From the NCBI GenBank assembly GCA_947650365.1, contig OX393549.1:25775709-25839708 (forward strand): a stretch of DNA of 64,000 nucleotides. The letters are read 5' to 3'. This DNA comes from Chamaelirium japonicum. Its lineage: Eukaryota > Streptophyta > Magnoliopsida > Liliales > Melanthiaceae. This document shows, piece after piece, positions 2,016 through 59,956 of the stretch (within the stretch, counting starts at the first letter, position 1; each line of letters starts with the position of its first letter). The translations under genes and the position numbers were made by a program. The notes under the pieces are model-generated. The model was given only the letters and a program-made list of their open reading frames with translations. It was not told the DNA's origin and did not search any database.

Positions 2016-2086
2016 AGAACTCCGTAGTTAAGCGTGCTCGGGCGAGAGTAGTACCAGGATGGGTGACCCCCTGGGAAGTCCTCGTG
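2016..2086 (+). other. 5S rRNA-derived segment, third (extra) unit
   Basis: Third copy of the 5S-like block, from a duplicated LTR end (1988-2137). Its box C reads CTGGGAAGTCCTCGTG, the canonical plant 5S form, whereas the other two copies have TTCTCGTG. Confidence 0.9.
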
Positions 2087-3649: not shown

Positions 3650-3874
3650 GTGAGGAGCATGTGCAAGTGGAAAGGTGAAGCAAGTTTCGAAAATGGCTCC
3701 GGGTCGACTAACGACAATAGAGATGCCAAGGTTGACAGCCATGAAAATCAAGTATCGTTCTTCGAAGATGATGGAGTGGTAATCTTGGCAGGATTGGATA
3801 CTTGATAGTGGCATCACACACAACATTTGTTAACATAGTGCATGTTTCATCACCTATGCGGAGTGTGAAGGTGG
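3650..3874 (+). pseudogene. Copia family B: end of gag zinc knuckle and start of protease
   Basis: The segment opens with the last cysteine of a CCHC zinc knuckle; the first three ligands lie at the B gag fragment ending at 28683. It runs into an aspartic protease active-site block with the pattern WILDSGIT.N.C (around 3791-3830). Gag zinc knuckles bind the element's RNA; the protease cuts the polyprotein. A frameshift precedes the protease motif and a TAA stop follows it (about 3829). The reading frame is then interrupted by element C at 3875 and resumes at 13939. The first five bases, GTGAG, are the target duplication of the A insertion. Confidence 0.8.
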
Positions 3875-6204
3875 TGTTGGAAATAAATCCATGGTAGAGG
3901 CCCACAGCGGAAGTAAAGAGAAGGTCCGAGGACCGTGAGCGGTGTGCGTTACATATCAAAATTTTCATCGAAACGATCTACATATGCATGTATGAATCTA
4001 GCATGGCAACAACGCGAACCCCTAACGATGATCTAACACGAAAGAACAATCTAGCATGTATGCATGTTCTAATTATGTTAGATCTACTTATTAGAGATCA
4101 TACCTGCGTGCGGAATCTTTCACCGCGACAAATTTCTTCTTTGTCGATGGAGACGGGCTCGGATCTGCTCGACATAGCTTTGGTGCGACGGCTATAACTT
4201 TCTGATCCGAACTCCGATTGGGCTGAAATTTGGACTGTAGGTAGCCAACTTCGAGACGCAACTTTTGCAACAAGTTTTATGTCGTTTGGACTTCTGTAGC
4301 TCCCGAAATTGCAGAAAAAACACTGATTTTCTGTGCAGGTTCTGGACAGCAAAAGGTTGCGGGAGATGCCTTCTAGTTCACCCGATCTCACACGATGCAC
4401 GGCAACTCATCGATGGATCTCTGAGTGCCTCCATATAATGAGCCTTCTCCTTCTATGAAACACCACGCGAGGAAGACGAGTCGCCATCCAATGGCGCAAG
4501 CGAGGGAGAGAGAGACGAGAGAGGAGATGCGAAGAGAGGCGAGGGGGCGGCTAGGTTTCCCCATGGCTTGCATGGCCGGCCCTAGGGCTTGCCCATGCAT
4601 CTAATTTCATCCCCCCCTCTCTCCTTTTACCTTATATAGGGACGGCCTTATCCTTATGGATAAGCCTAGCGGATAAGTTTGATAAATTCAAACCTCTCCC
4701 TATATATCTCTTCATTTATCTCTATCTTTTCCTTGTTTTTGAAAACGGTCAAAACGAGTCAGTTTTCTGCGCCTCATGACCGGACCTTTCATCAGAGGCA
4801 ACAACCTCCTGAAACCAATAGGAACAGCCTTGACCAGTCTATCAACACTAAGGGCCGGCCCGCCTAGTACATAGTGACGCATGGTATGACCAAAACGCCC
4901 TTATGTCACTAGTTGGCCGTTCCTCGTGTACGAGACTTTGCAAGACACACATAAGTGAAGTGCACCAGTGATTTCACTATTCTCTGAGGTTCCCGTAGGG
5001 TGTCTCTAGTGAAGTCAACTAGTCAACTCGCAACATATCCCGGTGCATCGCACCCATGTGGCAAAGTCCACTTATGACAAGGAATTGCTATATGCGTCTC
5101 TGCACTAACCTAGGGTTTCCCCTTAGTGCACACACGTAGCTACGCATCTACTATGCACTAGTGCAAAGCACTCACGGAGCATATGCTTGGACTTCTCGCT
5201 TCCTCTAACTACATTCTGTGTTTCGAGGAGATGGTATAAGAACCGTACATAATGTCGATAAGGTAGAACCTTCATGGACCAGGGTTCATGGCTTCCAACT
5301 CAGACTCGATCGACACACTACCTGAGTGTACCATCGATCCTTTGAGTCCGAGTTAACCTGCGTAGCCACCCAGAGTGCGACGCAGGCTGCACTCCAATTC
5401 CCCTGGACTTACTATGTTCTCCCTCATACCCCTGCTCTTCGCTTAGTATGGTAAACTCGCTGTCCCTCCACTGGTGCCATGATGCAACTCGAGCGGTGGA
5501 GAATACCGTCAGACTCGAGTGCTCTTATGACTCGGTTCCTTCCAGGTTGACCACATACATCGTACCTCCAATCACTCTGACGAGCAACCGGATCCGTCAC
5601 CAGTCCAATTGATGACCACCTGGCCAGGGTTTAATACGACGTAGGTCAGACCATGGAACGCACCTCCCGTTAGGGGAGTGAATAGCCTGCAGAAGTGACA
5701 TGCTGATGCAACGCCAGTCGGGTAACCCAGTACACTGTGGTTTTGGATCACTGCATCCGGATCCTCACACATTGATGCGCCAAAGCACCACACAACTGGT
5801 TAGTCCACTAGACATGGTTCCTCAGGGTTTATGACCGTTTTACCCTAAGTAGAAACACAGTTTAGTGCACCAATGTCTGCTCATCGATCTGTGCACCGTG
5901 TTGGTTCTGTTTGGCCACAGACACTGTGCCTGGTAATGATCGGGGTGGAGACACCCATGCTCTGTTATCCCAACAGCCTATCCTGATAGGGCGACCAACC
6001 CTGATCAGAGCTGTGAACATATTTAGGTTACATGGGACCAGTCCCTTGAGTCTCCGACTCAAGAGGATTACCATGTAGCCATGGCTCTCTGTTCTGTAAT
6101 CAGAACACGTACTAAGGTATGTACCAATATGCAATCCTATATTATCAATCATATATAGCTAAACTATAGGTTTTTACGAGCTGTAGACCTCACTAATTCT
6201 AACA
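3875..6204 (-). repeat. 3' LTR of element C
   Basis: On the plus strand it runs from TGTTGGAAATAAATCC to ATTCTAACA and aligns along its full length with 11600-13938. A TATA-like TTATATAGGG stands near 4632. ORF-like stretches in it (for example 5862-6152, minus) recur in the other LTR and have no family signature. Confidence 0.92.
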
Positions 6205-7550
6205 ATCTCCCACTAGGTCTAACGAGGAATAACGGTGTTGAGCTCTGTAGCTTCGACATGCTGCCCAAAAGCCTTTGCAGGAATTCCCTAAAGGAATTGG
6301 CAGCATTGTCTGTAGATTCTACCTCAGTACTGCTACTTGCATTTCCTCCTATAACTGTCAGATCAAGTGGAGTTTGTTCTTGATGGGCTTCCCCTCACAG
6401 TGATGCCTAGTCTCCTTGGACCTTGCTTACCGCTCTTCTGTTGTAACAACAGATAACTGAGCCTCTGGTATGCGTCCCAAGTTCTCTAAGAACTTCCTAA
6501 GCTATACCACCTAGTAGACTACCTCGCACGCAACAACGTGCTAAGCCTCTGTGGTAGAGTCTGTGATGCACTCTTGTTTCACACTCTACCAACTACCGCT
6601 TCTAATCCCATGATAAAAAATAATCCCTGAAATCGATTCTCTGGAATACACATCTGACACCAAAGTCAGATCCTGTATGTCCAATCGATATCAGGACCTG
6701 TGAAGTGCAAGCTAACTCACAATCCTTACATAATGAGGATTTCTGAGTATACCCTTTACATCGGTCCAGAGATCTGGACCCGGGTTTGACTAAAACCGAC
6801 CCATCTTCCTGCTACGTAATAGATATCTAGCCTCGTAAACCGAATCTGGCTAGAATCTTATTTTCATACGTAGCCTGTGATAGCAAGAGAATCTTGCTCT
6901 GGTTATCTCGAGTTACCTTGATTCCCAAAGCATAACTCGCCTCACTAGGGTCTTTCACATCGAATTGTGATGACTACAAACCTTTACCGTAAATAATATT
7001 CCTACGTCATTTTCAATCAGTAGAATATCGTTAACGTAAAGTACTATATACACCCTTGTAGCTATTTCACCTTTCTTGTACCAACTTGGTTTATCCTCAT
7101 TCTGATCCAATCCGTGTGAGCGGATTCCCTTGATCAAAATAGACATTCCAGCCTGGATACTTGCATCAGTCTATAAATGGACCGTTGCAACTTGCATTCC
7201 ATATCTTCCTAACCTGCTGACACAAAGCCTGGGGCTTCTTATCCATATGTCCTTTCCAAATTCCCGTTAGGGAATAACTGTCATGACATCCATCAACCAG
7301 ATCTTCCAACTATAATGGGCTGTGATGGATTTAAGAGGATCCGTTATAGACTTAGGCATAGCTACCAGTGAGATGGTTTTGACATAGTCAATCCCTTCTC
7401 TTTTGGCAACTAATCTAGCTACTTAAGTCTTAATCGGGTGCTCTTCTTATACATCTCCTACACCCCGAAGGGTGATAGTGCTATAAGTGTCAAGACTGTT
7501 CCAAGGAACATTGATGAAAATTTGCCTCCATGGTCTTTTATCAATCAGAG
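6205..7550 (-). pseudogene. Element C reverse transcriptase and RNase H, decayed
   Basis: Reading leftwards on the reverse strand gives RT palm and thumb, then RNase H, then the PPT beside the 3' LTR. The best-preserved block (6955-7146) contains the catalytic palm motif as YVNDILLI instead of YVDD; the mutated codon lies within 7014-7037. Losing an aspartate there should abolish polymerase activity. Further left, remnants resembling a copia C terminus (DNAAN.F, around 6290) can be read in broken frames. Stops and frameshifts are frequent throughout. The family is certain from order and motifs; nothing functional remains. Confidence 0.82.
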
Positions 7551-7556
7551 CTATTG

Positions 7557-7818
7557 GAAGCTCCCACTACTTCTTCGTAGCTCTAGGGATCATCCTCCTG
7601 AAACTCTGGATTAACTATCAAAGTTTCTCCATAGTATCTTTTAGGAGCTCTGATGGTCCCACAACGACGAGGTGGTGGTGGTACAAAGGAAGCTCCCACT
7701 ACTTCTTCGTAGCTCTAGGGATCATCCTCCTGAAACTCTGGATTAACTATTGAAGTTTCTCCATAGTATCTTTCAGGAGCTCTGATGGTCCCACAACGAC
7801 GAGGTGGTGGTGGTACAA
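7557..7818 (-). repeat. 131-bp tandem duplication in the integrase-RT linker of element C
   Basis: Two copies (7557-7687, 7688-7818) differ at only a few bases. Read on the reverse strand they encode a Pro/Arg-rich stretch then RYYGET and FQEDDP, the variable linker between copia integrase and reverse transcriptase. 131 is not a multiple of three, so the duplication shifts the frame. Confidence 0.9.
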
Positions 7819-9990
7819 AAGTGAATTATTTCTATAGTGTCTAGTATACTAGTTTCTTGTATCATCTACTCCCACTACGTTTTTCAGATGCGCACTCTCT
7901 ACCAGTACCCAGTAGTTCACCCAGAACTACCTTACAGATAAACTTATGGTCTATAATATAATCTTGGTCTAGGTAGATGGTGTTCGTAAAAATGATAACC
8001 TTTCTAACCACAAGATCATAAAACAGTCCACCTTATGCCTCCTAAGGGTAACCTACAAACAGATATACCTGGAACTACATCTCCATCTCATCCCTCTTGT
8101 CCTTTTGCACAAGTGCAGGACAACCCTATATCTCGAGAAACTATAGTGTCAGCTTTCGCTTAGACCATAGCTCTCTATAGGTCTGAGGCACTGATCTAGA
8201 TGAGCGATAGTTTCATATATAAGCTACTGTTTTAAGGTACAACCCCACCAAAGGTGGGTAGTACACTTGGCGATATTCATCATACTACGGACCATGTCAA
8301 ACAAAGTTCGATTCCTTCTCTTGGAGACTTCATTCTGACGTGTCATCCTTGGAGCATTTAACTGGGAGATAATCCCATGCTCCCTCAGGATCCTATGGAA
8401 CTCGTCCGATAGTGACTTAGTCCTTTGATTAAATTGAAGAGTCTTCTATCGTCTAGACGCTCTTGGAACCATAGACGTCAAAATTAACTAACTCTCATAC
8501 CTTCGTGGCCCTTTTAGTTATTCTGCCTTCCAGATTACACTCATAGGTTAGAAGGATCTCCGATGAATCTGTGAACAGAAACTTGGCCTTTATTTACCTC
8601 TAAATTTATCTGAGGCAAAATATCTAAATCAGAGGGGTTACAAATGGGGTAGATTCTCCGAAGGATTTAGATGAATTTCAATTAGACGCTGCAGCTGTCA
8701 TGAAATCTATTTTCGAATTAGGATTAAATACAAAGAGATTATTCTGATCTATTCCTCTAGTAATGAAGCTATCTTTTCAGTTTAAGATACACACCTACGG
8801 TGCTGTCTAAAACTAAAAACTTCATTTACTAAGGTGGAAACAGAACTACATCTCTAAAAATCAAAATCCGTGTTTTGGAAAAATTAAGACAATCATATCT
8901 AACAGCTTCCACAGTGGCTTATGGCATCAGTACCTATGTTAGGATTAGTTCACTATAAAGTAACCTTCTACTTTCCTTGAATCTCTGTAGATACGAAGTC
9001 TACATTCCAAGAAGCAGAAGAACTACTACTAAATAGTGTTTTAACCCCTAACACACTGAGTCCATACTCAATCTTCAAATAGCCCCTAGACTCGCCAAAG
9101 CGGAGACACTTTCGTCTTTAGCGTTACCATACTTAGGAGTCCATACTAGTTTCTGTATTAGAATTGTTTTCGATCTCTTATAAGTTACTCCTTTAGGTTC
9201 TTCTAAAGAAGACCTAGGTTAAGCACTAAAGGCTTTGCCTTTAATCTTGATTTCATTCTTTGTCTCTTGGAAATCTCCTTAGAAGTTCTATATTTATCAT
9301 CTCTAACTTGTTAAAGCTAAAGTCTCTGATAACGCCTTCGAAGGTTCCAGACAAGGATGCAAGGCAGACGTCTTCCATCACCTCGTCATCTGGCACCATG
9401 TCATTTGGAATCTAGTTCGATCTGGAACTGAAAGATGTGTTCCCGAACAAGCATACCCACTGACATCTCGGTACCGACAAATATCTTGGTGGATAAGCGA
9501 TGAGTCTACCGACTCCGCCTTCCAAACATCTTATGCAAGTAAAACTTATTTGAGAAGACCCGGCATATCTCTGACTTGCTTCTAAAGAGTTGTCTGCAAG
9601 TCTGCTATAACATAGAACTTGCACATCTCCTTAGACTCTCGCTAGCCATTATATGCCCTAGTTAGTGCCCTAGTGATATCTGGACTCGTTAGGTCTAGTA
9701 CAGGGATATTTAGATTGCTAGCCAATGTACGTTTACTACCCTAAGCATAAACTAAAGATAGCGCTTCCGCTCTACGTAGTTAGAGACCCGATAAGTGGTT
9801 CTCCCATGGGATAGCGGATAGGGGAACTATATGGTTGAATGAAAACGAATGCAAAATAACTTATTTTATGAATTTTGAAAATAAGCTAATTATATCCAAA
9901 TGTCAATGCTACCCTCACAGCGAAGACACCTCTATGGATTAATTAACCATGTATGTAAGATCTCGGAATCAACTACACCTGCCCTAGGGG
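7819..9990 (-). pseudogene. Element C gag-protease-integrase region, heavily decayed
   Basis: By position between the leader (right) and the RT (left), this 2.2 kb must hold gag, protease and integrase on the reverse strand. No reading frame longer than about 70 codons survives and I could not pick out an intact zinc knuckle or DDE triad. The integrase-like part is toward 7850-8700 and gag toward 9250-9860, judged only from element order and scattered short similarities. Treat the inner boundaries as approximate. Confidence 0.55.
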
Positions 9991-11585
9991 GCATCATGCA
10001 GCGTTAATCCGCTTACACGGGCCTTTCCTTGACCCAGTCCAAATCTGCCAACTAAGGGCTTTGATGGACCATGGTTATCTTTTGGCCAGTGCCACGTGAT
10101 CCCCATTGTGCAAGCAACGGATGCCTCACGTCCACTTTGGATGCTTACCCACAAGCCTAGGTAGTTACGACACGGGAGTTCATGCGGCCCCCACTAGGGT
10201 GGGATAAAAAGCTCTTCTCTCCTGGCCCTATAACTGCCATATCCTGAAGGAGACCGCTAAGTTATCTGGCATGAAAAAACATAACCCTCACCCTAGGGGG
10301 TGTCGAGCTATACCCTTCCACCCAGACACAGAGCAGTTGGTTGTGGAGGCCAGAGGATCTCGACGAGTCCTCTTACACATCCCTTATTATAGTTGAGGGT
10401 TATTTAATGCAAGTATGAGTGTACACTAAGGTCACGACAACCTATAAACTAGACCCTGGTTATACCGTGCTCCCACTAGTGTTTCAAGCCTTTCGTGAAG
10501 CATTAATCGATCTCAGAATATCATAGTCCCTGCCTCAAGTGGATTTCTCCACTCAAGGGTCATATTACATATCCCAAAAACATCGATGCTCCGCAAACTT
10601 GGCTATCACGCTAATGCCCTGGAGCCTAGCCTAAGGTCAGACTGACTGGAAAGGTCTCCCACTACCATGGTGCCTCATTTATAAATTTGACGATTGATGT
10701 CATAGTAGAATTCCAACTCATTCTAGGTTTCGATGCTGGCCAAATAGGCACACCCGACTAATCGGGTGTTGACCTAATGGTGGCATAACCAAATATGAGA
10801 AATTCATGCTATCATCAAGGGTCAATTAAATAATAGGCATCACTAGTGGAATCCTATCCTAATAAGGTCGCTAGGACCCGAGGGGAAAGGGCATCCCTCT
10901 AATACAGATAATTAAATTATCGCATCGGGGTTCTCTACAGAAAAATAAAGAACTACTGAAAGAAACAAGCACACAACTGAATCAAGTTCAGGGTCCGACC
11001 CCTGAACCTGACTGGCACAGCGTAGGCTCTCTGTATCCTTCGCAAGGTTCCTCGATCCGGTGTAAGCCTCTGTATACGATCTCTTGACGCTTTCTGCCCT
11101 TTGTTGTCATCGTGTACGCTTTGCCGGATCGCCATCATCCTCCAAGGTTCCACTCGTCCTCCCGGTGGTGGATCTCCACGGTAAGCCCTCCTCTTCAATC
11201 TGTAACCGAAAAAGCTCTAGTACGCTTCGAGCAAGTACTCGCTCGTACACAATTTCCTAGAATGAAAAGGAAAACAAACCTAGCAAAAAGCCTAGGAATC
11301 AAGGGTGGTAAATCTTCACCTCTTGCCCGACTATGGCTCTAAAATCTATCCACACAGAGAAGAAAAAATATCCAGACAAAATCGCTAACACGGGGTCCGA
11401 CCCCCGGTAGCAAGCAATCATATATCCAGAATAATTTTAGAAGTGACGCCCTGCAAGAATGATTCACAGAAAACACAAAATATATACTATGCATGATCTA
11501 CTCGTAGAACCCCGATGGCTGCACATACTATTCATGCGCGCACATGACGACTTCATGAAAAACATGAAACACACACCACTAGGAT
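9991..11585 (-). other. Non-coding leader of element C
   Basis: About 1.6 kb between gag and the primer-binding site, without credible ORFs. Blocks match the family A leader at 37966-39432 in inverted orientation: AATTTAATTATC next to AGAACCCCGATG, GGTCTAAGTCTAGGAGG, and GGGGTCGGACCCC-like words. The long leader is a trait shared by A and C. Confidence 0.75.
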
Positions 11586-11599
11586 GCTCTGATACCAAT
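11586..11599 (-). other. Primer-binding site of element C (tRNA-iMet)
   Basis: GCTCTGATACCAAT on the plus strand is the reverse complement of ATTGGTATCAGAGC and directly adjoins the 5' LTR at 11600. Confidence 0.92.
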
Positions 11600-13938
11600 T
11601 GTTGGAAATTAATCCATGGTAGAGGCCCACAGCGGAAGCAAAGAGAAGGTACGAGAACCGTGAGCGGTGTGCGTTACATATCAAAATTTTTATCGAAACG
11701 ATCTACATATGCGTGTATGAATCTAGCATGGCAACTACGCGAACCCCTAACGATGATCTAACACAAAAGAATAATCTAGCATGTATGCATGTTCTAATTA
11801 TGTTAGATCTACTTGTTAGAGATCATACCTGCGTGCAGAATCTTTCACCGCGTCAAATTTCTTCTTTGTCGATGGAGACGGGCTCGGATCTGCTCGACAT
11901 AGCGACATAGCTTCGGTGCGACGGCCATAACTTTTTGTTCCAAATTCCGATTGAGCTGAAATTTGGATTGCAAGTAACCAACTTTGAGATGCACCTTTTA
12001 TGAGAAGTTTCATATCGTTTGGACTTCTATAGCACCCGAAATCGCAGAAACAACACTGATTTTCTGTGAAGATTCTGGACAGCAAAAGGTTACGGGAGAT
12101 GCCTTCTAGTTCACCCGATCTCACACGATGCACGGCACCTCGTCGATGGATCTCTAAGTGCCTCCATACGATGAGCCTTCTCCTTCTACGAAACACCACG
12201 CGAGGAAGACGAGTCGCCATCCAATGGCGCAAGCGAGGGAGAGAGAGAGATGAGAGAGGAGATGCGAAGAAAGGAGAGGGGGCGGCTAGGTTTCCCATGG
12301 CTTGCATGGCCGGCCCTAGGGCTTGCCCATGCATCTAATTTCGTCCCCCCCTCTCTCCTTCTACCTTATATAGGGCCAGCCTTATCCTTATGGATAAGCC
12401 TAGCGGATAAGTTTGATAAATTCAAACATTTCCCTATATATCTCTTCATTTATCTATATCTTTTTCTTGTTTTTGAAAACGGTCAAAACCAACCCGTTTT
12501 CTGCGCCTCATGACTGACCCTTTCATCGGAGGCAACAACCTCCTGAAACCAATAGGGCCGGCCTTGACCAGTCTCTCAACACTAAGGGCCGGCCCCCCTA
12601 GTACATAGTGACGCATGGTATGACCAAAACGCCCTTATGTCACTAGTTGGCCGTTCCTCGTGTACGAGACTTTGCAAGGCACACATAAGTGAAGTGCACC
12701 AGTGATTTCACTATTCTCTAAGGTTCCGGTAAGGTGCCTCTAGTGAAGTCAACTAGTCAACTCGCAACATGTCCTGGTGCATCGCACCCATGTGGCAAAG
12801 TCCACTTATGACAAGGAATTGCTACATGCGTCTCTGCACTAACCTAGGGTTTCCCCTTAGTGCACACATGTAGCTACGCATCTACCATGCACTAGTGCAA
12901 AGCAATCACGAAGCGTATGCTTGGACTTCTCGCTTCCTCTAACTACGTTCTCTGTTTCGAGGAGATGGTATAAGAACCGTACATAATATCGATAAGGTGG
13001 AACCTTCAGAGACCAAGGTTCATGGCTTCCAACTCAGACTCGATCGATACACTACCCGAGTGTACCATCGATCCTCTGAGTCTGAGTTAACCTGCATCGC
13101 CACCCAGAGTGCGACGCAGGCTCTACTCCAATTCCCCCGGACTTACTATGTTCTCCCTCATACCCCTGCTCTCCGCTTAGTATGGTAAACTCGCTGTCCA
13201 TCCACTGGTGCCATGATGCAACTCGAGCGGTGGAGAATATCGTCAGACTCAAGTGCTCATATGACTCGGTTCCTTCCAGGTTGACCACATACATCGTACC
13301 TCCAATCACTCTGACGAGCAACCGGATCCGTCACCAGTCCAATTGATGACCACCTGGCCAGGGTTTCATACGACGTAGGTCAGACCAAGGAACGCACCTC
13401 CCGTTAGGGGTGTGGATAGCCTGCAGGAGTGACATGCTGATGCAACGCCAGCCGGGTAACCCAGTACGTCGTGGTTTTGGATCACTGCATCCGGATCCTC
13501 ACACATTGGTGCGCCAAAGCACCACACAACTGGTTAGTCCACCAGACATGGTTCCTCAGGGTTTAAGACCGTTTTACCCTAAGTAGAAACACGGTTGAGT
13601 GCACCGATGTCTGCTCATCGATCTGTGCACCATGTTGGTTTCGTTCGGCCACAGACACTGTGCCTGGTAATGACCGTGGTGGAGACACCCACGCTCTGTC
13701 ATCCCAACAGCCTATCCTGATAGGGCGACCAACCCTGATCAGAGCTGTGAACGTATTTAGGTTACATGGGTCCAGTCCCTTGAGTCTCCGACTCAAGAGG
13801 ATTACCATGTAGCCATGGCTCTCTGTTCTGTAATCAGAACACGTACTAAGGTACGTACCAATATGCAATCCTATACTATCAACCATACATAGCTAAACTA
13901 TAGTTTTTTACGAGCTGTAAACCTCACTAATTCTAAAA
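11600..13938 (-). repeat. 5' LTR of element C
   Basis: Partner of 3875-6204, starting TGTTGGAAATTAATCC on the plus strand. Its outer end reads TTCTAAAA where the other LTR has TTCTAACA. A TATA-like CTTATATAGGG lies near 12365. LTR divergence is visible throughout, so the insertion is not recent. Confidence 0.92.
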
Positions 13939-14224
13939 GGTTGTACTATAACGATCGGGGATGGCTCCAGGATGCTAACCAGGGGAATCAGAAATATTTG
14001 CTTGAGGAAATCTGATGGCTCCATTCAGACCCTTGTGGGTGTTCGTCATGTTCCGAGTATTAGAGCAAATCTGATCTCGCTTTTCCAAATTTGATTCTCT
14101 CGGGTATGAGACCACAAGTTCAGGTGGAGTCCTGAAAGTCATGGATGACACTTCTTCAGTCTGGGAGGGATCTGTAGAGGAGGCCTATATAAAGTCGCAG
14201 CGAGGGTAGTTCTAGGAACGGTAG
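13939..14224 (+). pseudogene. Copia family B protease to GAG-pre-integrase fragment
   Basis: Continuation of the B polyprotein after element C. A frame reads GSIQTLVGVRHVPSIRANLIS (about 14010-14078), the conserved protease C-terminal motif of copia elements. A later LYKV..VV.GT (about 14188-14218) marks the start of the GAG-pre-integrase domain. Frameshifts and a stop separate the blocks. Just downstream the coding sequence jumps into LTR sequence, so integrase, RT and RNase H have been deleted from this copy. Confidence 0.75.
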
Positions 14225-14998
14225 CCTCCGTGAAGAGCAAGTATGCATTTGGAGTTAGCCCGAGTGCGCGAAAGACGAGGAAGAAATTGAGGCTTGCTCG
14301 GGCGAGTCTGGTAGCAACCTAGTGGGCAGAACCTGCAACAAACTTGCCTGGGTGAGCAAGATTTTGCCTTAGCGAATCGGGCTAGACAGGTGCTGGATGA
14401 GCGCATGCAGGTCACGGTTTAGGCCTATTTTTTGGGGTTTTATGGTCGCTCTTGGGCAATTTTCTCCTCTCCTATTTAAAGGGGGGGGGGGGGGGTTAGG
14501 TGGCTATAGGGTTTTATCGAAGACATCAAGAGGGAGACGAAGAGAGAGCAAGGAGCCGTCATAGGGTTCTTGTGGTTTTGTGGAAGAAGAGAAGGAAAAG
14601 GAAGAAGAAGGAAGGGGGTTCAGCTATAGATTCTTGACACGTCTTCTTCAGCTTCAATCTCGACGAGCGTTCTCATCTCTCGGGAGATTCCGGTATTCTC
14701 TGATCTTTGTGTGGGGATCTTTACTTCGTGTTTGTAATGTATGAAAGTGATCATTGAGTGGTTTGTGGGGGTCTGACAAATGGAGACCCATTGCTTATGT
14801 ATTCTCTTTGATCAAGATAATCCAATCCTTGTTGACAACATATATCGTTGTTTGTTGTTGTGTTGTGGACCGATTCTCTTGTTTCTGTAGGGCTCTGAAC
14901 GTCAATCCTAGTGCGACGCTTCTGATTGCACTCAATGGATCGCTGGTGTGTGTGAGCAACTAGTGGGATCTTCAGGGTTTGAATCCTTGGTTTTTCCA
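14225..14998 (+). repeat. 3' LTR (5'-truncated) of copia family B
   Basis: It aligns with the B 5' LTR at about 27300-27960. Shared blocks include GGTTTTATGGTC.CTCTTGGG, the TATA-like CCTATTTAAA followed by a run of G (14469-14497), TGATCATTGAGTG, and the end TTCAGGGTTT. It is joined directly to pol, so an internal deletion removed the LTR start and most of pol. The right TSD was not identified. Confidence 0.75.
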
Positions 14999-16170: not shown

Positions 16171-16350
16171 TGAAGAGTTTCATGAACCATCAGAGAACAA
16201 CCATGACGACACACAACAAAGAGAGAATATGAGAGAAGAATATTGTTTCTTCATGAATTTGTATTGAGGTTTATAACGATATAATGAATGGCAGAATGCA
16301 ACATTTCAATATCTCATTAATCTTCCGGCGGATCTAATAATATATTTTAA

Positions 16351-17644
16351 TACTCTCAAATAACATAATATATTTCCTAATAATTATGTTAATATAATCT
16401 CATAATTATATTTCCTGATTAATTTTGGAACCGCAATGCAGAGGGGCTGCCCCACTTATATCTTTGGTTGTTGGGTGTTTTGTTGATGTGAGATAAACAA
16501 AAGGACAGCCATTGTTGGAGTTGTTCTCTTCCTTGCGGCGATTCTCTTTCTCAAATAAAGAAGGAAGAAGATAGTACACTTGCGGATTCCGGCTGCTGAA
16601 GCTTCATCCCGCCAACGGATTTGTAATCAGTTTATCCAAAAATGAAGATAACGATACTTTCGAAAGGAAAAGAAATAAAACAATGTGAATCAACTGAGAC
16701 AGATTCAGGTCATTTAATCGAACCGAGTTTCTTCGACTTTGTTAGCCTTCACTGAAACTAAGATGAATGTCCAGTGCTTAATATTTTAATTGCTCCGTTC
16801 ATAGAGCCCGCGTGGGCCTTTCCTACGCTTTGTCTTGAGTCTTCCCCCTGCCCCTCTATTTATAGGTGAAGGGTGAGGGGAGAGATATGGGAAGTTTATT
16901 TGGATCCCTTTAATATCTCTCCCATAACTACCCAAGATTTATTCTTCAATTGAAGAGGGGAATAAACATTTATTTGCTTTCCTTTTCTGGCGGGGTAATT
17001 ATGGCTCAATCATTTTTGAATTTATTTTGAATCTTGCACATAAAGTCGATGGCGACCCGGCTTCGTTTCTTTTCCGTCAGATCGAGGGATCGGTACAGAT
17101 CGACACTTACGTAGACGTCATACGCAACCTCCCCCCGCGCATGGCGGTATTTGTTTCCTTTTTAGTCTTTTCTTTCCTTCTCTTTTGTTTCCTTTCTTTC
17201 TTTCTTTTTCTTCTTTTCTTTTCTTTCTTTGCATGGTCGGCCACCCCCTTAAGGGTTCAGCTTTCCATAAGGGGGCCGGGTGGGCCCTACTTGGGGACGG
17301 GCCCACCCGGCCCCTTGTTTGGCGTGGGTCGGGTCTGGTTTGTATGTCGGGTTTGCTTCCGAGTCGGTGCATGCAAGTCGGGTCCAAGTCTGAATGCGTG
17401 TCGGGTTTGCCTCCGCATTGGCGCATGCGAGTCAGGTCCGGGTCCGAATGCGTGCCGGGTTTCCCTCCGCATTGGTGCATGCGGGTTGGGTCCGGGTTAG
17501 ACGCAATTTGTGTGTCTACATTACGGTTTACCGCGGTTCTTGGTTTTAAACCACACCACTATCATCCCTAATTCATATGTGCCATCTCCTCTGTAATGGT
17601 TTGGAAGAATAGTTTCCATGGGACAATAGCTCGATATATGTACA
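16351..17644. repeat. Tandem duplication, unit 1 (1294 bp)
   Basis: Unit 1 of a head-to-tail duplication with unit 2 at 17645-18938. The hexamer TACTCT stands at 16351, 17645 and 18939, at both outer edges and at the junction. Part of the unit (about 16800-17520) shares its layout with the Tat-like LTR at 47250-47930: CGGATCGAGGGATC, a CTT-rich tract, GGCCGGCCA-like words and GGGTGGGCCCTA. The unit therefore seems to contain gypsy LTR sequence. ORFs of 120-157 codons appear in both strands but are pyrimidine-tract artefacts. Confidence 0.85.
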
Positions 17645-18938
17645 TACTCTCAAATAACATAATATATTTCCTAATAATTATGTTAATATAATCTCGTAAT
17701 TATATTTCCTGATTAATTTTGGAACCGCAATGCAGAGGGGCTGCCCCACTTATATCTTTGGTTGTTGGGTGTTTTGTTGATGTGAGATAAACAAAAGGAC
17801 AGCCATTGCTGGAGTTGTTCTCTTCCTTGCGGCAATTCTCTTTCTCAAATAAAGAAGGAAGAAGATAGTACACTTGCGGATTCTGGCGGTTGAAGCTTCA
17901 TCCCGCCAACGGATTTGTAATCAGTTTATCCAAAAATGAAGATAACGATACTTTCGAAAGGAAAAGAAATAAAACAATGCGAATCAACTGAGACAGATTC
18001 AGGTCATTTAATCGAACCGAGTTTCTTCGACTTTGTTAGCCTTCACTAAAACTAAGACGAATGTCCAGTGCTTAATATTTTAATTGCTCCGTTCATAGGG
18101 CCCACGTGGGCCTTTCCTACGCTTTGTCTTGAGTCTTCCCCCTCCCCCTCTATTTATAGGTGAAGGGTGAGGGGAGAGATATAGGAAGTTTATTTGGATC
18201 CCTTTAATATCTCTCCCATAACTATCCAAGATTTATTCTTCAATTGAAGAGGGGAATAAACCTTTATTTGCTTTCCTTTTCTGGCGGGGTAATTATGGCT
18301 CAATCATTTTTGAATTTATTTTGAATCTTGCACATAAAGTCGATGGCGACCCGGCTTCGTTTCTTTTTCGTCGGATCGAGGGATCGGTGCAGATCCACAC
18401 TTACGTAGACGTCATACGCAACCTCCCCCCGCGCATGGTGGTATTTGTTTCCTTTTTGGTCTATTCTTTCCTTCTCTTTTCTTTCCTTTCTTTCTTTCTT
18501 TTCCTTCTTTTCTTTTCTTTCTTTGCATGGTCGGCCACCCCCTTAAGGGTTCAGCTTTCCATAAGGGGGCCGGGTGGGCCCTACTTGGGGACGGGCCCAC
18601 CCGGCCCCTTGTTTGGCGCGGGTCGGGCCCGGTTTGTATGTCGGGTTTGCTTCCGAGTCGGTGCATGCGAGTCGGGTCCAAGTCCGAATGCGTGTCGGGT
18701 TTGCCTCCGCATTGGCGCATGCGAGTCAGGTCCGGGTCCGAATGTGTGTCGGGTTTGCCTCCGCATTGGTGCATGCGGGTCGGGTCCGGGTTAGACGCAA
18801 TTTGTGTGTCTACATTACGGTTTACCGCGGTTCTCGGTTTTAAACCATACCACTGTCATCCCTAATTCATATGTGCCATCTCCTCTGTAATGGTTTGGAA
18901 GAATAGTTTCCATGGGACAATAGCTCGATATATGTACA
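17645..18938. repeat. Tandem duplication, unit 2 (1294 bp)
   Basis: Near-identical second copy with a constant offset of 1294 at start and end, so few or no net indels. Differences are scattered single bases (for example GGTCTGG against GGCCCGG near 18630). Confidence 0.9.
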
Positions 18939-19023
18939 TACTCTGGTGTGAGTCTTTCATACACAAAGAATATATAAAAGCATATACTACCCTATACAAT
19001 CATATACACCGTGTCTCTCTCAG

Positions 19024-19072
<49 letters not shown>

Positions 19073-19723
19073 AGCTCAATGTGGATCAATCACCGAGAAT
19101 TTGGCAAGTAAATACTGGAAGTGCACAACTGTATGAGTCTTGGTAAAGAAGTTTGTGATATGCTCAGTAGAGGAAACATAAGAAAGGAATATAGTAGCAG
19201 GGTATTAAAAATGGACAAAGTGAATTAAATTCTATGTGTTCCATCCGTTCATATAAGACTGGATTGGTGGCTATTTTAATAGCACTCTGATTGTCGCAAT
19301 GAAGTGGAGTAGGAGTAGAAAATGCCACGCCCGGCTAGATCAGAGATGAGACAACATAGCCAAATGACCTATGTAGCAATATGGGACATTGCACGATACT
19401 CAGCATTTGTACTAGAGCAAGAGACTATCTTCTGCTCCATGAAATCAGAGTCATCGAGAAATACGTAGAAGCTGGTAGTAGATCGACAATCAGTGAGATC
19501 ACCGGACAAGTCAACATCTCCATATGCATGAAGCACCAAAGTAGAATACGCAAAAAACACGAAAGAGCGAGTGAATGTCCCGCGAAGGTAGCATAGGATA
19601 CGTAGAAGGACAACATAGTGAACAAAGTGAAGCTTGCGGATGAACTGGTTCAATATGACATGTATGCGTAATGTCATGCCTGGGATGGTCAAGTAAACAA
19701 GACTGCCCATAAGCTGTCGATAC

Positions 19724-20016
19724 TACAGATGGCAACAGGACTGTCTAAATGGGAAACCCGACCCGACCAAACCCGACCCAACCCAACCCGACCCGACCCT
19801 ACCCTACCCGATTATATATGTTTTTTTTTTGCCATTTGATAATTTACTCGGATATAGTCTAGTATCCTGTTTAATGTTGTACTAATACTATATTTAAGGA
19901 GATAATACAACTCATGCCTTTTGTTTATAAAATATCTAGAACATAAAACCTATCAATATGTTCATGATGTTTAACTGGTTGCAGACTTGTAGTAAGTATA
20001 CATTTCAATGTAGTAT

Positions 20017-20099
<83 letters not shown>

Positions 20100-20550
20100 T
20101 TGGAAGTGAAACGTTAGTCTCCACTCAATGGGGCAAATGCCCTATATAGTTGTACATGGATGCTGTCACCAACGGTGAGCATACACACTTTAGTCTAACT
20201 TATATAGGACTATATATGTACACACTTTAACATATAGTAGATATGTTTAATCCATTCAATGTATATATATTTAACAAAAGCATAGAAACTATTGTTTTAT
20301 GATATCAATATATTCATTGCTTTTCTTAAAAAAAATAAGTTTAGTTCAAAATATAATCAACTAGGTTGGATTTGTCAAGCATAAACATAATTGGGATGGG
20401 ACGGGACGGGTTTGGGTTTTTACTAGTGTTAGTAAGATGGGTTTGGGATTGATCATTCAAACCCGATATGGGTTTGGGATAAGGTATTCCTTAGTGGGAT
20501 GGGGTCAGAATAGGCCGATCCGTCCCAAGCCTGACCCGTTGCCATCCCTA
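19724..20550. mobile_element. Non-autonomous hAT transposon inserted in copia D
   Basis: An 827-bp element with terminal inverted repeats TACAGATGGCAACAGG at the left and, in reverse complement, TAGGGATGGCAACGGG at the right, a common plant hAT end. It has a perfect 8-bp target duplication GTCGATAC (19716-19723 and 20551-20558), the length diagnostic for hAT. Both ends carry subterminal ACCCGACCC / GGGACGGG-like repeats (19759-19810, 20396-20545). It encodes no transposase and must depend on one elsewhere. The interior holds a long (GA)n tract. Removing it restores continuity of the copia RNase H coding sequence. Confidence 0.93.
20022..20095. repeat. (GA)n microsatellite inside the hAT element
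   Basis: About 37 GA dinucleotides. Confidence 0.97.
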
Positions 20551-20720
20551 GTCGATACATTGTGGGATTAGAAAGTGTCTCATCATCGGTCGAACAAAGC
20601 TTAAGGTGGAGCTCCATTGGTTTATCAGCGGTGCGGGATTCACTTAATCAAGCACGACTAGTTAAATCAGAGATGAACTTCTGCTAAGAAAGACAATACC
20701 ATCTAGGGAGGAAGTCAACC

Positions 20721-21856
20721 TCAAAACACAAGATTTACAGCAACAATGACCCCACAATGATGTAGAAGCACGTTCCTCTTCTTCCCTAATTTCTTACCCC
20801 CTCGTCCCTTCCCTCCCTCATCCCTTCCCTTCCTTCTCTCTCAATGCGGTGGCAAGTTGAAGTTGTCGTAGAAATTTATTTAGTAAATTGACAAAGTACT
20901 TTTAAAAAAAGGAAAAGAAAAATGAAACAAAAAAAAAATTGCATGCCCAAGTAAAAATTTTATTTTAGTAATTCGACAAAGTACTTCTAAAAAAATTATG
21001 GTTTCCCTCTTCTTACTGTCCTTCCCTCAAGTACTCATTGCACTGCTCGAGCTTGGTCTCCTCTGCTACTGCTCCTCCAGCACTTCCCAAAGCCTCTTCG
21101 TCTCCCTTTTTCGCACGACGCTCTCGAATAAGGGCAGCTCCTCCCACTCGTCGGAGATAGAACGGAGGCGTAGGAGCCGCCTCCTATACTCCTCGTGCCG
21201 CTCAATCGTGCTCGGCTCACTGGGTTTCTTTGCCCGGGCTTCTTCACCCTTTGTAGACGATGTATATCTCTTGTACAAGTAGCTCATTGTATAACTTCCC
21301 ACGAATTTTTACTAATCTTTTTTGTTTTTCTCCAATATCTCAACGAACCAATAATATAACGTTCTTTAGTAATAATCATCACTAATTACCATTCTGCATA
21401 AATAGCCTACCAATGAGAAATCGAACTAAAAAAAAGTTTCCAACTATGAAATGAAAATTTAGGTAGGCAATGCCCCATGGAGTTTAGTGATTTGTTATGA
21501 TGGCTTGACCTTTCAAGTTATAGAAATAGAAAGTTACGCCAAGTCATGCAAAATATATCTCCTTATTGGTCACAATGTCATGTCTTATATGCATGCTTAG
21601 CGCAACCTTTTATATGAATTGCATGACAACCTTTTATATGAATTGCATGACTCGACATTTCAGCACACATAAGGGTGTAGCAATAATTAGTCAGACTCAG
21701 GTTAATTAAAATCTATTACACATTCAAATTTGAATTAAAATAGGTTTGTGTGATATGAATTAAGAGGTTTTCTTCAACTAAAATTATAAAATTTGGTGGC
21801 TACAAAGATAGTTGTATCATTGAGTATGTTGTAAGGTGGAAAAATAATGAAATTGA
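20721..21856. other. Intergenic, AT-rich, no recognisable gene
   Basis: The short pyrimidine-rich ORF at 20998-21282 (94 codons, plus) overlaps antisense ORFs of 70 and 78 codons and has no recognisable domain. 21600-21650 contains a short direct repeat (CCTTTTATATGAATTGCATGA twice, trimmed). No promoter or gene structure was identified. Confidence 0.5.
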
Positions 21857-22382
21857 TGTTGGATATAATATATAACTTAATTACCTACTTCTCTTAACAA
21901 ATAAAACCGGTTGGCCAAGTGGCTAATAAAGGTCAATTTTTTAGGGGCTTCCTTTTTTGGCAAAAATCAAGGGATCATATCTTGGCCTCAACCATTATTT
22001 TACTATCTCTCCCTAAGTTTAGTCCCATATCGATAAGGGGAAGAGGCACTAGCTTGTTTATAAGGATGGTTCATCCTAGAGGATGGTAAAGCTCACATGG
22101 GCCTAAGGCCTCACACACCACACACACGCGCGCGCGTCGAACCGGGCCGGGCCCTTGTCCGTGGTCCGCGGTTCACAAGCCGTGTGGACGCGAATAGGCT
22201 TTGGGTGAGATTTTGTTGGGCTATTCTTTTTGGGCTTCAAGTCACTAGGCTGGGCTTGCTATTTCCCCTACAGCCATCATCATTTCACCATCTAGAGCCA
22301 CCCAAACGGTCATCATTTGTGCCAGCGGGCAGCCCCCCAACAGTCATGTCGCAGCTGCCTGTCTACGTCAGCCGCCACCTCG
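21857..22382 (+). repeat. 5' LTR of element E, truncated
   Basis: It aligns with the first ~540 bp of the 3' LTR (25928-26463), then breaks off near GCCGCCACCTCG. Both copies carry a (CA)n/(CG)n stretch (22119-22137; 26183-26207). Confidence 0.9.
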
Positions 22383-22478
22383 AGCTGTGACCATTGGTGG
22401 ATTGACACCAGAGCGAGCATTCACGTTTGTTCTGACCGCTCCTGGTTCTCTACATTTCAGGAATCGTGTGGATGAGCT

Positions 22479-25377
22479 GTGACCATGGGGAACAGTTCTT
22501 CGGCAAACGTGCTTGGGACCGGTCATGTGGATCTCCATCTGACGTCCGGAAATACCATCACATTGCACGATGTTCATTTTGTACCTAATATTAGACACAA
22601 CCTCATTAGTGGATCCCTTTTAGTTTTGTATGGCTATAAGCTTGTTTTTGAAGCCAGCAAAGTTGTAATTACTAGAGGTGTGCATTTTGTAGGAAGATGA
22701 TATTTATGTAATGGGTTATTTCAGCTTAATGTCATAACTCCCTCTTGTACAAACGATTCTATTATAATGAATATTGAGTCCTCCTTTACTTGGCATCATA
22801 GATTGGGTCATACAAACTTTCATTCCATTAAGCGACTAATGAACATGAACTTGATCCCTAAAAGCGACATTCCCTCCAATAGATGCGAGGTGTGCGTAGA
22901 AGCGAAACAACCTAGGCAACCGTTTATATCTGTTGATAGAGACTTCGAGTTTCTTGAATTGATTCATAGCGATGCATGTGATTCGGGTAGATTAACTAGA
23001 GGGGGCAACAGGTATTTTGTTACCTTTATTGACGATCTCTTAAAATACTGTTATGTCTACCTTATTAAAACTATGGATGAGGTCATTAGTAAGTTTAGGA
23101 TTTACATAACCGAGATAGAAAACCAATTTCAAAAGATCCTTAGGTCCGATCGAGGTGGAGAGTACACCTTAAACGAATTAACCGATTATTGTGAAGAGTA
23201 TGGAATTATCCATCAAGTGACTGCTCCCTATAGTCCCCAATCAAACGGAGTCACTGAAAGGAAAAACAGAACCTTGTTGGATATGACCAACTCTATGTTG
23301 ATTAGCTCAGGCACAGCAGAGAACTTGTGGGAAGAAGCGCTGGTAACAACTTGCTACATCCTTAATAGGATTCCCCTCAAGTCTAGCAACCTCACACCCT
23401 ATGAAATTTGGAAGAATAAGAAGCCAAACTTGAGTCATCTTAGAGTGTGAGGGTGCCTGGCTAAAGTTAAGGTACCTAAGTTCAGAAGAGAGAAGATAGG
23501 ACCCAAGACTGTAGACGCCGTTTTCTTAGGTTATGCCACTAATAGTAATGCCAATAGATTCCTAGTCGTTCGATCTGATATCGATGGGATATCGACCAAT
23601 ACCGTTATCGAGTCTAGGGATGCAACCTACTTTGAGGATGTATTTTCCTTTAGGACTAGGATAGATGCACCCGTGAGTCAGCCGCACTATGATGCATGCG
23701 CTAGTTCTAGTGGGGCTAATCCTTTTGAGGATGACACCCCTGTAGAGAACGAGTCAGAACCATAGCCTAGGAGAAGTACTAGGATTAGGAAGGAGAAGGA
23801 TTTTGGAGATGACTTCTACGTATTTCTCATAGAGGACACTCCAACCTCCTTTGAAGAAGCAATGAAATCTTGGGATTCACCCTTATGGAAGGAAGTAGTG
23901 AATAATGAGATACAATCCATTATCCAGAACCAGACTTAGGAGTTGACCGATCTACCCCCAGGCGCTAGAACCATTGGGTCTAAATGGGTTTTCAAAAAGA
24001 AACTACAACCCGATGGATCGGTAGAGAAGTTTAAGGCCCGTTTAGTTGCTAAGGGTTTTACTCAAAAACCCGGTATAGATTTCTTCGACGTATATGCTCC
24101 CGTAGAAAGGATAACCACGATTAGGATTCTTATTGCCTTAGCCTCTATTCATGGATTGTACATCCACCAGATGGATGTTAAAACCGCTTTTCTGAATGGA
24201 GATTTAGAAAAGGAGATCTATATGGATCAACCTGAAGGTTTTGTAGTTACTGGTCAGGAGCATATGGTGTGTAAACTCGTTAGGTCATTGTATGGGCTTA
24301 AGCAAGCTCCCAAAAAATGGCACGAGAAGTTTGACCAGGTAGTCCTTTCGTATGGTTTTGTTATAAACAAAACCAACGAATGTGTTTACTGTAGAGCCTC
24401 TGATGGCAACATAGTTATCTTATGCTTATATGTCGATGATATACTCATCTTCGGTACCTACATGGACATCATTAACAATGTCAAAGAATTTCTATCCCAG
24501 AACTTTGATATGAAGGATTTAGGAGAGGCAGAGATGATCCTTAACACCAAGATCACCAGAGAGGGCAGAGGCATTAAGATGTCTCAAGCTCACGATGTTG
24601 AGAAGGTGTTGAGGAAGTTCTACTACTTTGATTGTGATCCCATATCCACCCCCTATGACCCACATACTCACTTACTAAAGAATATTGGATATCCAGCTTT
24701 ACAAAAAGAGTATGCTCAGGTCATAGGTTCACTAGGATTCTTAGCAAACTATACTAGACCCGATATATCATATACAGTTAGTAGGCTAAGTAGATACACT
24801 AGCAACCCTAATCAAGAACATTGGAATGCGTTAGAAAGGGTAATGTGCTACCTTAAAGGGACCATACCATATGTGTTAAGCTTTAGTGGGTATCCTAGTG
24901 TGCTAGAGGGGGTATAGCGACACTAACTGGATTAGCGATTCAGTAGATGTCAAATCCACCACTGGATTTGTTTTCCTTCTAGGCGGTGCAGCCGTTGCAT
25001 GGAAATCTTCTAAGCAAACCGTGATAGCTAGAAGTACCATGGAGTCCGAGATGATAGCACTAGACAGTACGTGTACTGTAACCGAGTGGCTTAGGGACTT
25101 AATTATGGATGTTCCCTTAGGAGATCACCCATTGTCGGGAATCTCCATTTATTGTGATTATAGGGCTGCAATAGACAAATGTAGTCAAGAGAATGCAGAT
25201 GTAAAAATGAACAGACACCTTAAGGTAAGACACATGTCACTGCGATATAAACTAAAACACAATGTTGTAACATTTTCATTTGTCAGATCTGAGAAAAACC
25301 TTGCTGATCAGCTAACAAAAGGTTTATCTAGAACCGTGGTTCTAGAAGCGTCGAGGGGGATGGGATTAAGCCCATAA
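22479..25377 (+). pseudogene. Element E pol: protease end, integrase, reverse transcriptase, RNase H
   Basis: Four open stretches form one polyprotein. 22479-22700 is the protease C terminus (VPNIRHNLISGSLL). 22767-23450 is GAG-pre-integrase plus integrase: zinc ligands H11, H15, C40, C43 and catalytic D69, D128, E164 with 35 residues between the last two. 23943-24917 is RT with YVDD near residue 163. 25021-25377 is RNase H with [10 protein letters not shown] and the C-terminal [10 protein letters not shown]. Integrase and RT are in the same frame, separated only by stop codons at 23448, 23763 and 23938. An extra G near 24910 shifts RNase H to another frame. The first and third stops sit where Trp is usual. 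Otherwise this is the best-preserved pol in the window. Confidence 0.93.
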
Positions 25378-25927
25378 AGAGGATACCAACGGTGGCAACC
25401 CAACCTTAAAGAGGTTCAAAGGGTAGAAACAAGCCGGATGGGTATCTCGAGGAGCACTGATAGTTTCCTCCCATCCCTAGGGCGACAGTGCTCACATATG
25501 CAAGGGGATTAGGATGAGCTTTTAAACTCTTAATGATTCCAAGACCTATGAGACAGGGTGTTTCCTTGCATACACCCTTGGAGGAATCACCTATACGTGT
25601 GGAGTCATGGAGCTGCGACTATAGGAAGAGGGTTGTTCTCCTTAAACACATATGAAAGATACCTACGCACGGCCGTAATGCGCAACCCGCTTTAAAACTC
25701 AGCTAATACTACACTGTGTGTGCTTTATGGAAATCTGAATCACGAGGTCGATTCAAGACGTAGTCCATCGAGTCCTCGCAGATAAAAGTAAATGTCACTA
25801 AGTAAGGGTTCAAACCGAAAAGGTACCCTTATCTATTACACAGTGTCCATAATCCAAATTTTGATTTCAAATTTTGATTTTATATATCTTCAACTACTTT
25901 AAATAAGTTTCATATTATATGGGGGAT
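25378..25927 (+). other. Element E 3' untranslated region and PPT
   Basis: 550 bp between the RNase H stop and the 3' LTR without credible ORFs. TATGGGGGATT at the right end is the polypurine tract that primes plus-strand DNA. Confidence 0.8.
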
Positions 25928-27139
25928 TGTTGGATATAATATACAACTTAATTACCCACTTCTCTTAACAAATAAAATCGGTTGGCCAAGTGGCTAATAA
26001 AGGTCGATTTTATAGGGGCTTCCTTTTTTGGCAAAGGTCAAGGGATCAAATCTTGGCCTCAACCATTCTTTTACTATCTCTCCTTAAGTTTAGTCCCATA
26101 TCGATAAGGGGAATATGCACTAGCTTGTTTATAAGGGTGCTCCATCCTAGAGGATGGTAAAGCTCATATGGGCCTAAAGCCTCACACACCACACACGCGC
26201 GCGCGCACGCCGAGCCGGGCCGGGCCCGGGTCCGTGGTCCATAGCTCGTGAGCCGCGTGGACACGAATGGGCTTCCGGGCTTCGGGTCAGATTTTGTTGG
26301 GCTATTCTTTTTGGACTTCAAGTCACTGGGTTGGGCTTGTTGTTTCCCCTACAGCCATCATCATTTTGCCACCTGGAGCCATCCAAACGGTCATCATTTG
26401 TGCCAGCGGGCAGCCCCCCAACGGTCATGTCGCAGTTGCCTGTCCACGTCAGCCGTCACCTCGGGCCACTCCGCTCCCCCTATCAACAACCATTAAAATA
26501 TATTCCCAAGGCCTATTAAATGCCGTGTGCTTCAATCTTTCAAACAACAGAGAAAACCAGAGCCTTCTTCCTCCTCTCTTTTTCTGCCATTGCTGAACCC
26601 TGTGAGCTCTGTGAGAAAAACCCGAGAGTAGTATTTTCATCATCTTCAAATCTCAGGGTGATTTTCCGACTTGATTTGAAGAGGAGATTCTGTTTCCGTT
26701 TTTATTTTTCGGATTCGAGTAGAAGCTGAGTTCGTTTCGTTCCCTCAGAGTCGTGCTGACGGGGGAACTCAAGGGTCGTTGTATCTCTAAGATCGGAAGC
26801 CGGGAGCTACGCACCGAGGAGGGCAAATCCAATCTTAGGACAGCGTCTTGCGCCTCGACCCAGGCTATTTCCTCTCCCTACATCTCCATACATTCATATG
26901 CTAAATTAGTTCTTCTATGTTGATCTAGTACTACTTGAATTTGATCCTCTATCTAAGCATTTCATGCTATAACTTAAGTAAATGGGTTACTCATAGATTA
27001 AAAGTGAATTGTGCTTATTGCTGATTTTTAATAGCTATCAAATATAGTTGATACCATCTTATATCACCGCTCTCTAAATTTGGTATTTGCAATTCATAAT
27101 AGCCATTTTAATCTCTGTTTTAGCAATTTATGACCAACA
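25928..27139 (+). repeat. 3' LTR of element E
   Basis: 1212 bp from TGTTGGATATAATATACAAC to TGACCAACA, flanked by ATTGA. Overlapping ORFs of 60-110 codons near 26248-26730 lie within the LTR and have no recognised domain. Confidence 0.92.
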
Positions 27140-27299
27140 ATTGAAAAACTGAGTATAATTTTCCAGTTGTATGGTTGGAGATCTAACTCGTATTTCTAAT
27201 CAGATGAGGAGAATGAATCATTTGCTTCAATCCACATACTCAAACTTCTAGGGATAATAACTAATAATAGGAATGGGACGTTCGTGAGTGGTCCCTATT

Positions 27300-27960
27300 C
27301 GGTTTTTCGGCTTGGAAAACCAGCTGGAGCAACGAACTTACCCGGGCGAGTCTAACAACAACCCAGCGGGCAGAGCCCAAAACAAACTCGCCCGAGCAAA
27401 ACAGACTGGATGGGTGTGGGATGGGCATATACGGGTCGCGGCTTTGGCCGATTTTTGGTGGTTTTATGGTCTCTCTTGGGTAATTTTCTCCTCTCCTATT
27501 TAAAAGGGGGCGGGGGGGGGGGGGGAAGGTTAGGTGTCATAGGATTCTTGTGGTCACATGGAAGAAGAAAAAGGAAGGGGATTCGACTAGGATTCTCGAC
27601 GCGTCTTCTTCGGCTTCGATCTCGGCGAGCTTTCTCATCTCTCGGGCGACTCCGGTATTCTCTGGTCTTTGTGCAGGAATCTTTACTTCGTGTTTGTAAC
27701 GTCTGAGAGGGATCATTGAGTGATTTGCGGGGCTCCGACAAACAGAGACCCACTGCTTGTATATTCTATTTGATCGTGATAATTCAATCCTTGTTGACGG
27801 CATATATCATTGTTAGTTATTGTGTGGTGGATTGATTCTCTTGTTTTTGCAGGGCTCTAAACCTCAATCCTAGTGTGACGCTTCCGATTGCACTCGGCAA
27901 ATCGCTGGTGTGTGTGCGTGGCTAGTGGGATCTTCAGGGTTTCGATCTCCGGTTTTTTCA
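27300..27960 (+). repeat. 5' LTR of copia family B
   Basis: It ends GGTTTTTTCA just before a primer-binding-site-like TGTATTAGAGCC (27966-27977), a variant of TGGTATCAGAGC. CTATTTAAA (27497-27505) is a TATA-like box followed by a G-rich run. It aligns with 14225-14998. The exact start is uncertain; 27145-27299 may be host sequence or LTR. Confidence 0.75.
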
Positions 27961-28683
27961 ATTGTTGTATTAGAGCCATGGTTTTATACAAGGATCTGAG
28001 GTGGGTGGAGCCATAGCAGACGGGACGTGAGAATCGAAAGGTTCAACGGCACAAACTTTGATTTTTTAAAGATACAGATGGAGGACGTCTTAATCAGAAG
28101 GACCTCTATTTGCCTTTGGGCGATTTAGCGACAAGCTGGAGAAGATGACTGACAAGAATTAAGTGATTCTCGACAGGAAGGGAATGTGCCTGATTCGTCT
28201 CTCTTTGTCTCCGACAGTGGTCTTCAATATCTCTATGGAGAAGATCACGACGGACATTATGAAAGCACTATCTAGTATGTACGAGAAACTTTCGGCCTCA
28301 AATAAGGTTTTTCTCTTAAAAACTCTGTTCAATATGAGGATGGTCAATAAAAGAAGTATAACAGAGCACGTCAACACCTTCAACAAAGTTACGAGCCAAT
28401 TGGACGCTGTCGGAATTAATTTTGATAATGAGATCATGTCTTTATTGATCTTATTGGGACTTCCTAATAGTTGGGATGGTGTTGTGAAGGCGATTAGTAA
28501 TTCTTTCGGTACTACGAAGATGAGATTTGAAGATGTAGTGTAAACCCTACTAAGTGATAAATCACGTAGGAAGGGTTCAAGTGTTTCTGCGGAATCTTCT
28601 GGCCAAGTGATAGTTATGAGGCCGGATGCAAAGAGCAAGAAGAAGATTGTATGTTATAAGTGTGGAAAGTCCAAACATGTGAG
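27961..28683 (+). pseudogene. Copia family B gag, 5' part up to the zinc knuckle
   Basis: Gag packages the element's RNA into particles. Near 28040 a frame reads IERFNGTNFDFLKIQMEDVL, the copia gag N-terminal block. The open stretch 28163-28543 matches the UBN2/retrotran-gag domain, including LFNMRM...ITEHVNTFN and LLGLPNSWD. After a stop (28541-28543, where the usual L or Q is expected), CYKCGKSKH gives the first three ligands of a CCHC knuckle (about 28652-28678). The coding sequence stops there because an A element is inserted; its target duplication GTGAG is 28679-28683. The missing fourth ligand is found at 3650-3665. Confidence 0.88.
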
Positions 28684-59955: not shown

Positions 59956-59956
59956 T

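Follow-up and report, generated by a model that had tools for sequence, protein, structure and literature searches.

We analyzed a 64,000-nucleotide stretch of the Chamaelirium japonicum genome (contig OX393549.1, hereafter the window) and found two sites, 25 kb apart, that are best read as the two sides of a single retrotransposon insertion whose order has been swapped. The inserted copia-type element, A, would have entered B, a short element composed of a 5' long terminal repeat (LTR), gag, a protease region and a 3' LTR. The half of B carrying the 5' LTR and the left part of gag (left B) now lies at the right-hand site, and the half carrying the protease region and the 3' LTR (right B) follows the left-hand site, in a window that self-comparison showed to be dense with nested LTR retrotransposons.

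At the left-hand site, the A LTR ends in ...AATTCCAACA at 3649 and is followed by GTGAG (3650-3654) and then by GAGCATGTGCAAGTGG. At the right-hand site, the B flank ...TGTTATAAGTGTGGAAAGTCCAAACAT runs into GTGAG (28679-28683), after which an A LTR starts with TGTTGTAGCG at 28684. The edges of the insertion have the form TG...CA (TGTTGTAG at 28684 and CCAACA at 3649), and the 5-bp target duplication GTGAG is identical at both. An initial annotation of this DNA had given these same LTR limits, each with its GTGAG, and our reading of the sequence found them exact to the base. When the two flanks were joined with a single GTGAG, frame 1 gave KSKKKIVCYKCGKSKHVRSMCKWKGEASFENGSG..., with the core CYKCGKSKHVRSMC and the spacing C-x2-C-x4-H-x4-C of a zinc knuckle, so that the ligand spacing previously claimed across the two places was reproduced in frame. 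The joined 39 amino acids matched Pfam zf-CCHC (E 0.0013, 19.1 bits, for a curated cut-off of 20.8), and for the 46-amino-acid left piece by itself Pfam gave nothing, even with E allowed up to 1.

As a control for the spacing, the start of the right flank was slid across 601 positions and the ligand pattern was scored for each join. Results showed that C-x2-C-x4-H-x4-C was completed by 26 of the 601 joins, the true one counted and 2 of the 26 containing a stop; on its own, the ligand spacing is poor proof of one site. GTGAG occurs 62 times in the 64,000 bases, and two sites would be expected a priori to agree in 5 bp about once in 1024 cases. The case for one insertion is carried by the 5-bp match, the homology of the outer LTRs of B and the copia domain order taken together.

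The two B LTRs (14288-14998 and 27332-27960) were in fact homologous, with a Kimura two-parameter distance (K2P) of 0.234 over 629 sites; all divergences given here are K2P, and the A LTRs were compared over the sites shared by the copies. The domains of B also stood in copia order across the two halves, with Retrotran_gag_2 (E 8.5e-19) in the left piece and Pol_BBD (E 7.5e-9) in the right piece, beyond an A-like element (C) nested in right B. Together with GTGAG, these results support the earlier claim that both places belong to one insertion site. Moreover, the LTR divergences decreased from B (0.234) to A (0.087, between the LTR ending at the left-hand site, L, and the one starting at the right-hand site, R5), to C (0.061) and to element E inside the right A (0.015), an order that agrees with the nesting.

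Three A LTRs are present in the window: L, the 3' LTR of the left A, and R5 and R3, the 5' and 3' LTRs of the right A. The left A is inside the window only from the 3' end of its pol, its 5' side lying to the left of the window. Its internal part (1-775), in which two open pieces gave no Pfam match at E 0.01, differed from 42349-43123 by 0.095; L differed from R3 by 0.104 over shared sites and from R5 by 0.087, and overall the A copies stood at 0.09-0.11. In the right A, two pieces of 41821-43123 matched RVT_2 (E 5.3e-6 and 3.1e-5, both below the curated cut-off) and two further pieces had no Pfam match. The sequence ATTGGTATCAGAGC after R5 is presumably a tRNA-primer site. R5 has probably lost the 0.84 kb by which it is shorter, since the related C LTR holds a similar segment, and the ends of the deletion are the short near-repeats AGTTCA/AGCTCA. 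We also considered the 0.84 kb as a later insertion shared by L and R3, which would make these two LTRs duplicates; this is unlikely considering that the similar segment (68%) is found in the C LTR on the opposite strand.

The two LTRs of the right A have unlike flanks, GTGAG before 28684 and TGCGG after 45075, and self-blastn of the window found no match to B in the DNA beyond 45080. To judge from its sequence, the right A seems to consist of two A elements fused together. R3 carries a patch (44422-44620, limits set after inspection of the data) with 33 private differences among 199 shared sites, where L and R5 are mostly alike; such a patch could be expected if R3 came from another A subfamily or element. 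The block of F sequence in the right A (F being an LTR-type insertion also present in L) has flanks that disagree (GCGGG and CGGAT) and replaces an A segment of about 2.9 kb, by comparison with positions 1366-4256 of the C internal region. One exchange at this block, between F in a first A and F in a second A, would account for both flank mismatches. The block holds several F LTR copies, and 38873-39836 is repeated at 92% at 39870-40863, A sequence included.

We consider it probable that the arrangement goes back to one insertion of A into B, one end-to-start joint and one exchange between A elements. A copia-type A would have entered an older, short B a single time, in the zinc knuckle of gag, with GTGAG as target; the 3' flank of this composite would later have been joined to its own 5' flank; and an exchange with a second A elsewhere would have produced a hybrid element, with its 5' part from the first A and its 3' part from the second, which has TGCGG as its downstream neighbour. 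As an outcome, the end of A would be followed by right B, then by the joint, by left B and by the start of A. The initial annotation had put the junction within 15000-27300, and an end-to-start joining must indeed fall between the two sites. The interval shrinks to 15004-21856 because the copia element D appears, by its sequence, to have ATTGA on both sides and so to be a clean insertion and hence not the joint; a joint within D was judged excluded on this ground. The 3' end of D was placed by eye as CCAACA followed by ATTGA, the truncated 5' LTR does not align there, and the D LTRs differ by 0.10 over 529 aligned sites. Within the remaining interval, 16340-18944 contains a 1.3-kb unit repeated head-to-tail and 97% alike, with similar frames seen by eye near 47326-47736.

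Several observations weigh against this history. The zf-CCHC match of the joined knuckle, at 19.1 bits, is under the Pfam cut-off of 20.8; the R3 patch could be explained by gene conversion; and the F block could alternatively have arisen from F inserting twice into the same A. With the R3 patch set aside, the three A LTRs are star-like (private sites: R3 30, R5 40, L 36; p 0.49) and the L-R5 distance of 0.085 is the largest, against 0.079 for R5-R3 and 0.074 for L-R3. Because of this star, divergence is silent on whether L pairs with R5, and we base that pairing on the target site. In addition, a matching target duplication of B itself was not found, as AAGTC follows the 3' LTR and GAGCA or AGCAA precedes the 5' LTR, whose 5' boundary is uncertain.

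The initial annotation had explained the swapped order by a duplicated B+A composite. What stood of this proposal is that the two places look like opposite sides of one insertion, with an end-to-start joining between them; what did not is the duplicate in the window, where self-blastn of the 64 kb (E up to 1e-10, at least 80 bases) detected each half of B once only. A simple duplication of the intact composite, whether in tandem or dispersed, would give both the order of the pieces and the matching target site, and outside the R3 patch the L-R3 distance is no greater than L-R5. It would also place GTGAG and right B after the right A, but TGCGG and DNA with no match to B are found there instead, and the B protease half that was to be sought downstream next to A was not found there. 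Considering also that the window showed no second copy of B and that the A ends are too diverged for recent copying, we regard such a plain duplication as highly improbable. A recent duplication is ruled out, since the A copies differ by K2P 0.09-0.11, about the distance between L and R5, which border the split site. A duplication roughly contemporary with the A insertion is opposed by the flank alone and is compatible with the divergence (outside the patch, L-R3 0.074 and L-R5 0.085); duplication can still belong to the history if a later exchange between A elements shortened the second copy. Another scenario has A inserting independently at the same base in two copies of B, each of which then lost the opposite half. 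It would agree with L-R5 not being the closest pair outside the patch and with the B flanks sharing no target duplication. This scenario requires the same base to be hit twice and two complementary losses, and the other targets in the window (CTAGG, GGTGG, ATTGA, CAGGT), which belong to other families, have no common motif by eye; we give it very little credence. An assembly artefact, with contigs misjoined within repeated copies of A, E or F, is unlikely: the order does change at repeats and long simple repeats are near, but the window contains zero N and the A LTRs disagree at 8-10% of the sites they share, too unlike to be misjoined with one another, although the right A might be misjoined with some unseen close copy.

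Within the preferred history of one insertion, one joint and one exchange, the swapped order most likely came from ordinary recombination between repeated elements. With some reserve, we prefer a route in which the composite was duplicated in tandem and a deletion between A (or F) elements then shortened the second copy; the right side of this copy would have been lost as its A recombined with another A downstream. This route is preferred because large tandem duplications are known in plants (PMC10462705) and because unequal recombination is described as leaving intact elements without target duplications (PMC7251063). A circle is a more doubtful form of the same history: the composite would have left as, or been copied into, a flank-to-flank circle of tens of kb, reinserted by one crossover at a second A, and the window would then hold a circularly permuted composite with its opening point marked by the split target site. 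A single crossover of this kind would produce the two recombinant A elements as well as the swapped order, would need just one copy of each B half, matching the window, and would account for the unlike flanks of the right A. The pieces are indeed in swapped order and the same orientation, and a change from A-B to B-A order is presented in PMC7450558 as the mark of circular intermediates in human duplications. However, the human cases, as that source outlines them, are without homology at the reinsertion points, whereas homology is proposed here, and the sequence of the window fits a duplication followed by a deletion as well.

We then compared the arrangement with known systems. In plants, unequal recombination is said to yield LTR elements that are intact but whose target duplications do not match (PMC7251063); as that source presents them, those elements resemble the right A, with two LTRs and both flanks readable and disagreeing, but here the other side of the insertion apparently survives 25 kb away, in swapped order. 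Human segmental duplications with A-B to B-A order have been read as products of circular intermediates (PMC7450558), and a similar circle route is outlined in PMC7188851. The order change without inversion is common to those accounts and to our window; in contrast, no donor locus in the original order is seen in the window, and homology (A or F) is proposed at the opening point instead of microhomology. In Arabidopsis methylation mutants, tandem duplications of 34-56 kb and chimeric circular DNA in which a retrotransposon is fused to a gene are reported (PMC10462705), which provides a plant precedent for both large tandem duplications and a retrotransposon-gene circle. As described there, those events are recent and arose in mutants, whereas the one considered here is undated and would follow an A insertion with LTRs about 9% different. 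Among the matches listed in the open-access literature this arrangement was unreported and no closer parallel appeared, which does not prove its absence.

The rearrangement of these nested retrotransposons looks real; its kind is known, and it is unusually readable. A target site split at a known base serves as a tag suggesting which LTR edges once belonged to one insertion, and this tag exposes an exchange between elements that LTR divergence alone cannot reveal here. If the circle route were true, the window would hold a fossil of homology-driven circle reintegration in a plant-type genome; if not, it would be a clear example of ordinary rearrangement driven by repeats.

Table. Features of the window on which the analysis is based, in order of position (TSD, target-site duplication).
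Feature	Positions	Strand	Remarks
Left A, 3' end of pol	1-775	+	collinear with 42349-43123; matches 3' part of C internal region
L, 3' LTR of left A	776-3649	+	TG...CA; F inside at 1221-2137; by alignment to 28684-29799 and 43124-45075
F, LTR-type insertion in L	1221-2137	+	TSD CTAGG (1216-1220, 2138-2142)
GTGAG target copy, 3' side of A	3650-3654	+	
Right B, gag part with the last knuckle cysteine, then the beginning of the protease region	3655-3874	+	
C, A-like element in right B	3875-13938	-	TSD GGTGG/GGTTG, 4/5 (last two bases read as changed CA); LTR K2P 0.061
Right B continued, protease/Pol_BBD region to purine-rich tract	13939-14287	+	
B 3' LTR	14288-14998	+	by alignment to 27332-27960
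Interval expected to contain the joint of the 3' and 5' flanks of the composite	15004-21856	.	inference
D, copia element	21857-27139	+	ATTGA on both sides; 5' LTR truncated
B 5' LTR	27332-27960	+	by alignment to 14288-14998; 5' boundary uncertain
Left B, gag with first three knuckle ligands	27961-28678	+	reading frame interrupted in places
GTGAG target copy, 5' side of A	28679-28683	+	
R5, 5' LTR of A	28684-29799	+	about 0.84 kb shorter than the other two; primer-binding-like ATTGGTATCAGAGC next
E, in right A	29943-37965	+	TSD CAGGT on both sides; LTR K2P 0.015
F block in right A	39433-41820	-	flanks GCGGG / CGGAT; candidate exchange point
Right A pol, reverse transcriptase to 3' end	41821-43123	+	collinear with C
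R3, 3' LTR of right A	43124-45075	+	ends in CCAATA (CCAACA in the others)
TGCGG after R3	45076-45080	+	in place of GTGAG

Other parts of the window contained further features. Inside E, 32708-33862 is a 384-amino-acid open frame with no Pfam match at E 0.001. On the minus strand, 49272-51922 contains open pieces that by eye resemble copia integrase, reverse transcriptase and RNase H. Finally, two long TA-repeat tracts about 4 kb apart, within 56076-60651, are almost perfect inverted copies of each other (98% over 275 bases).

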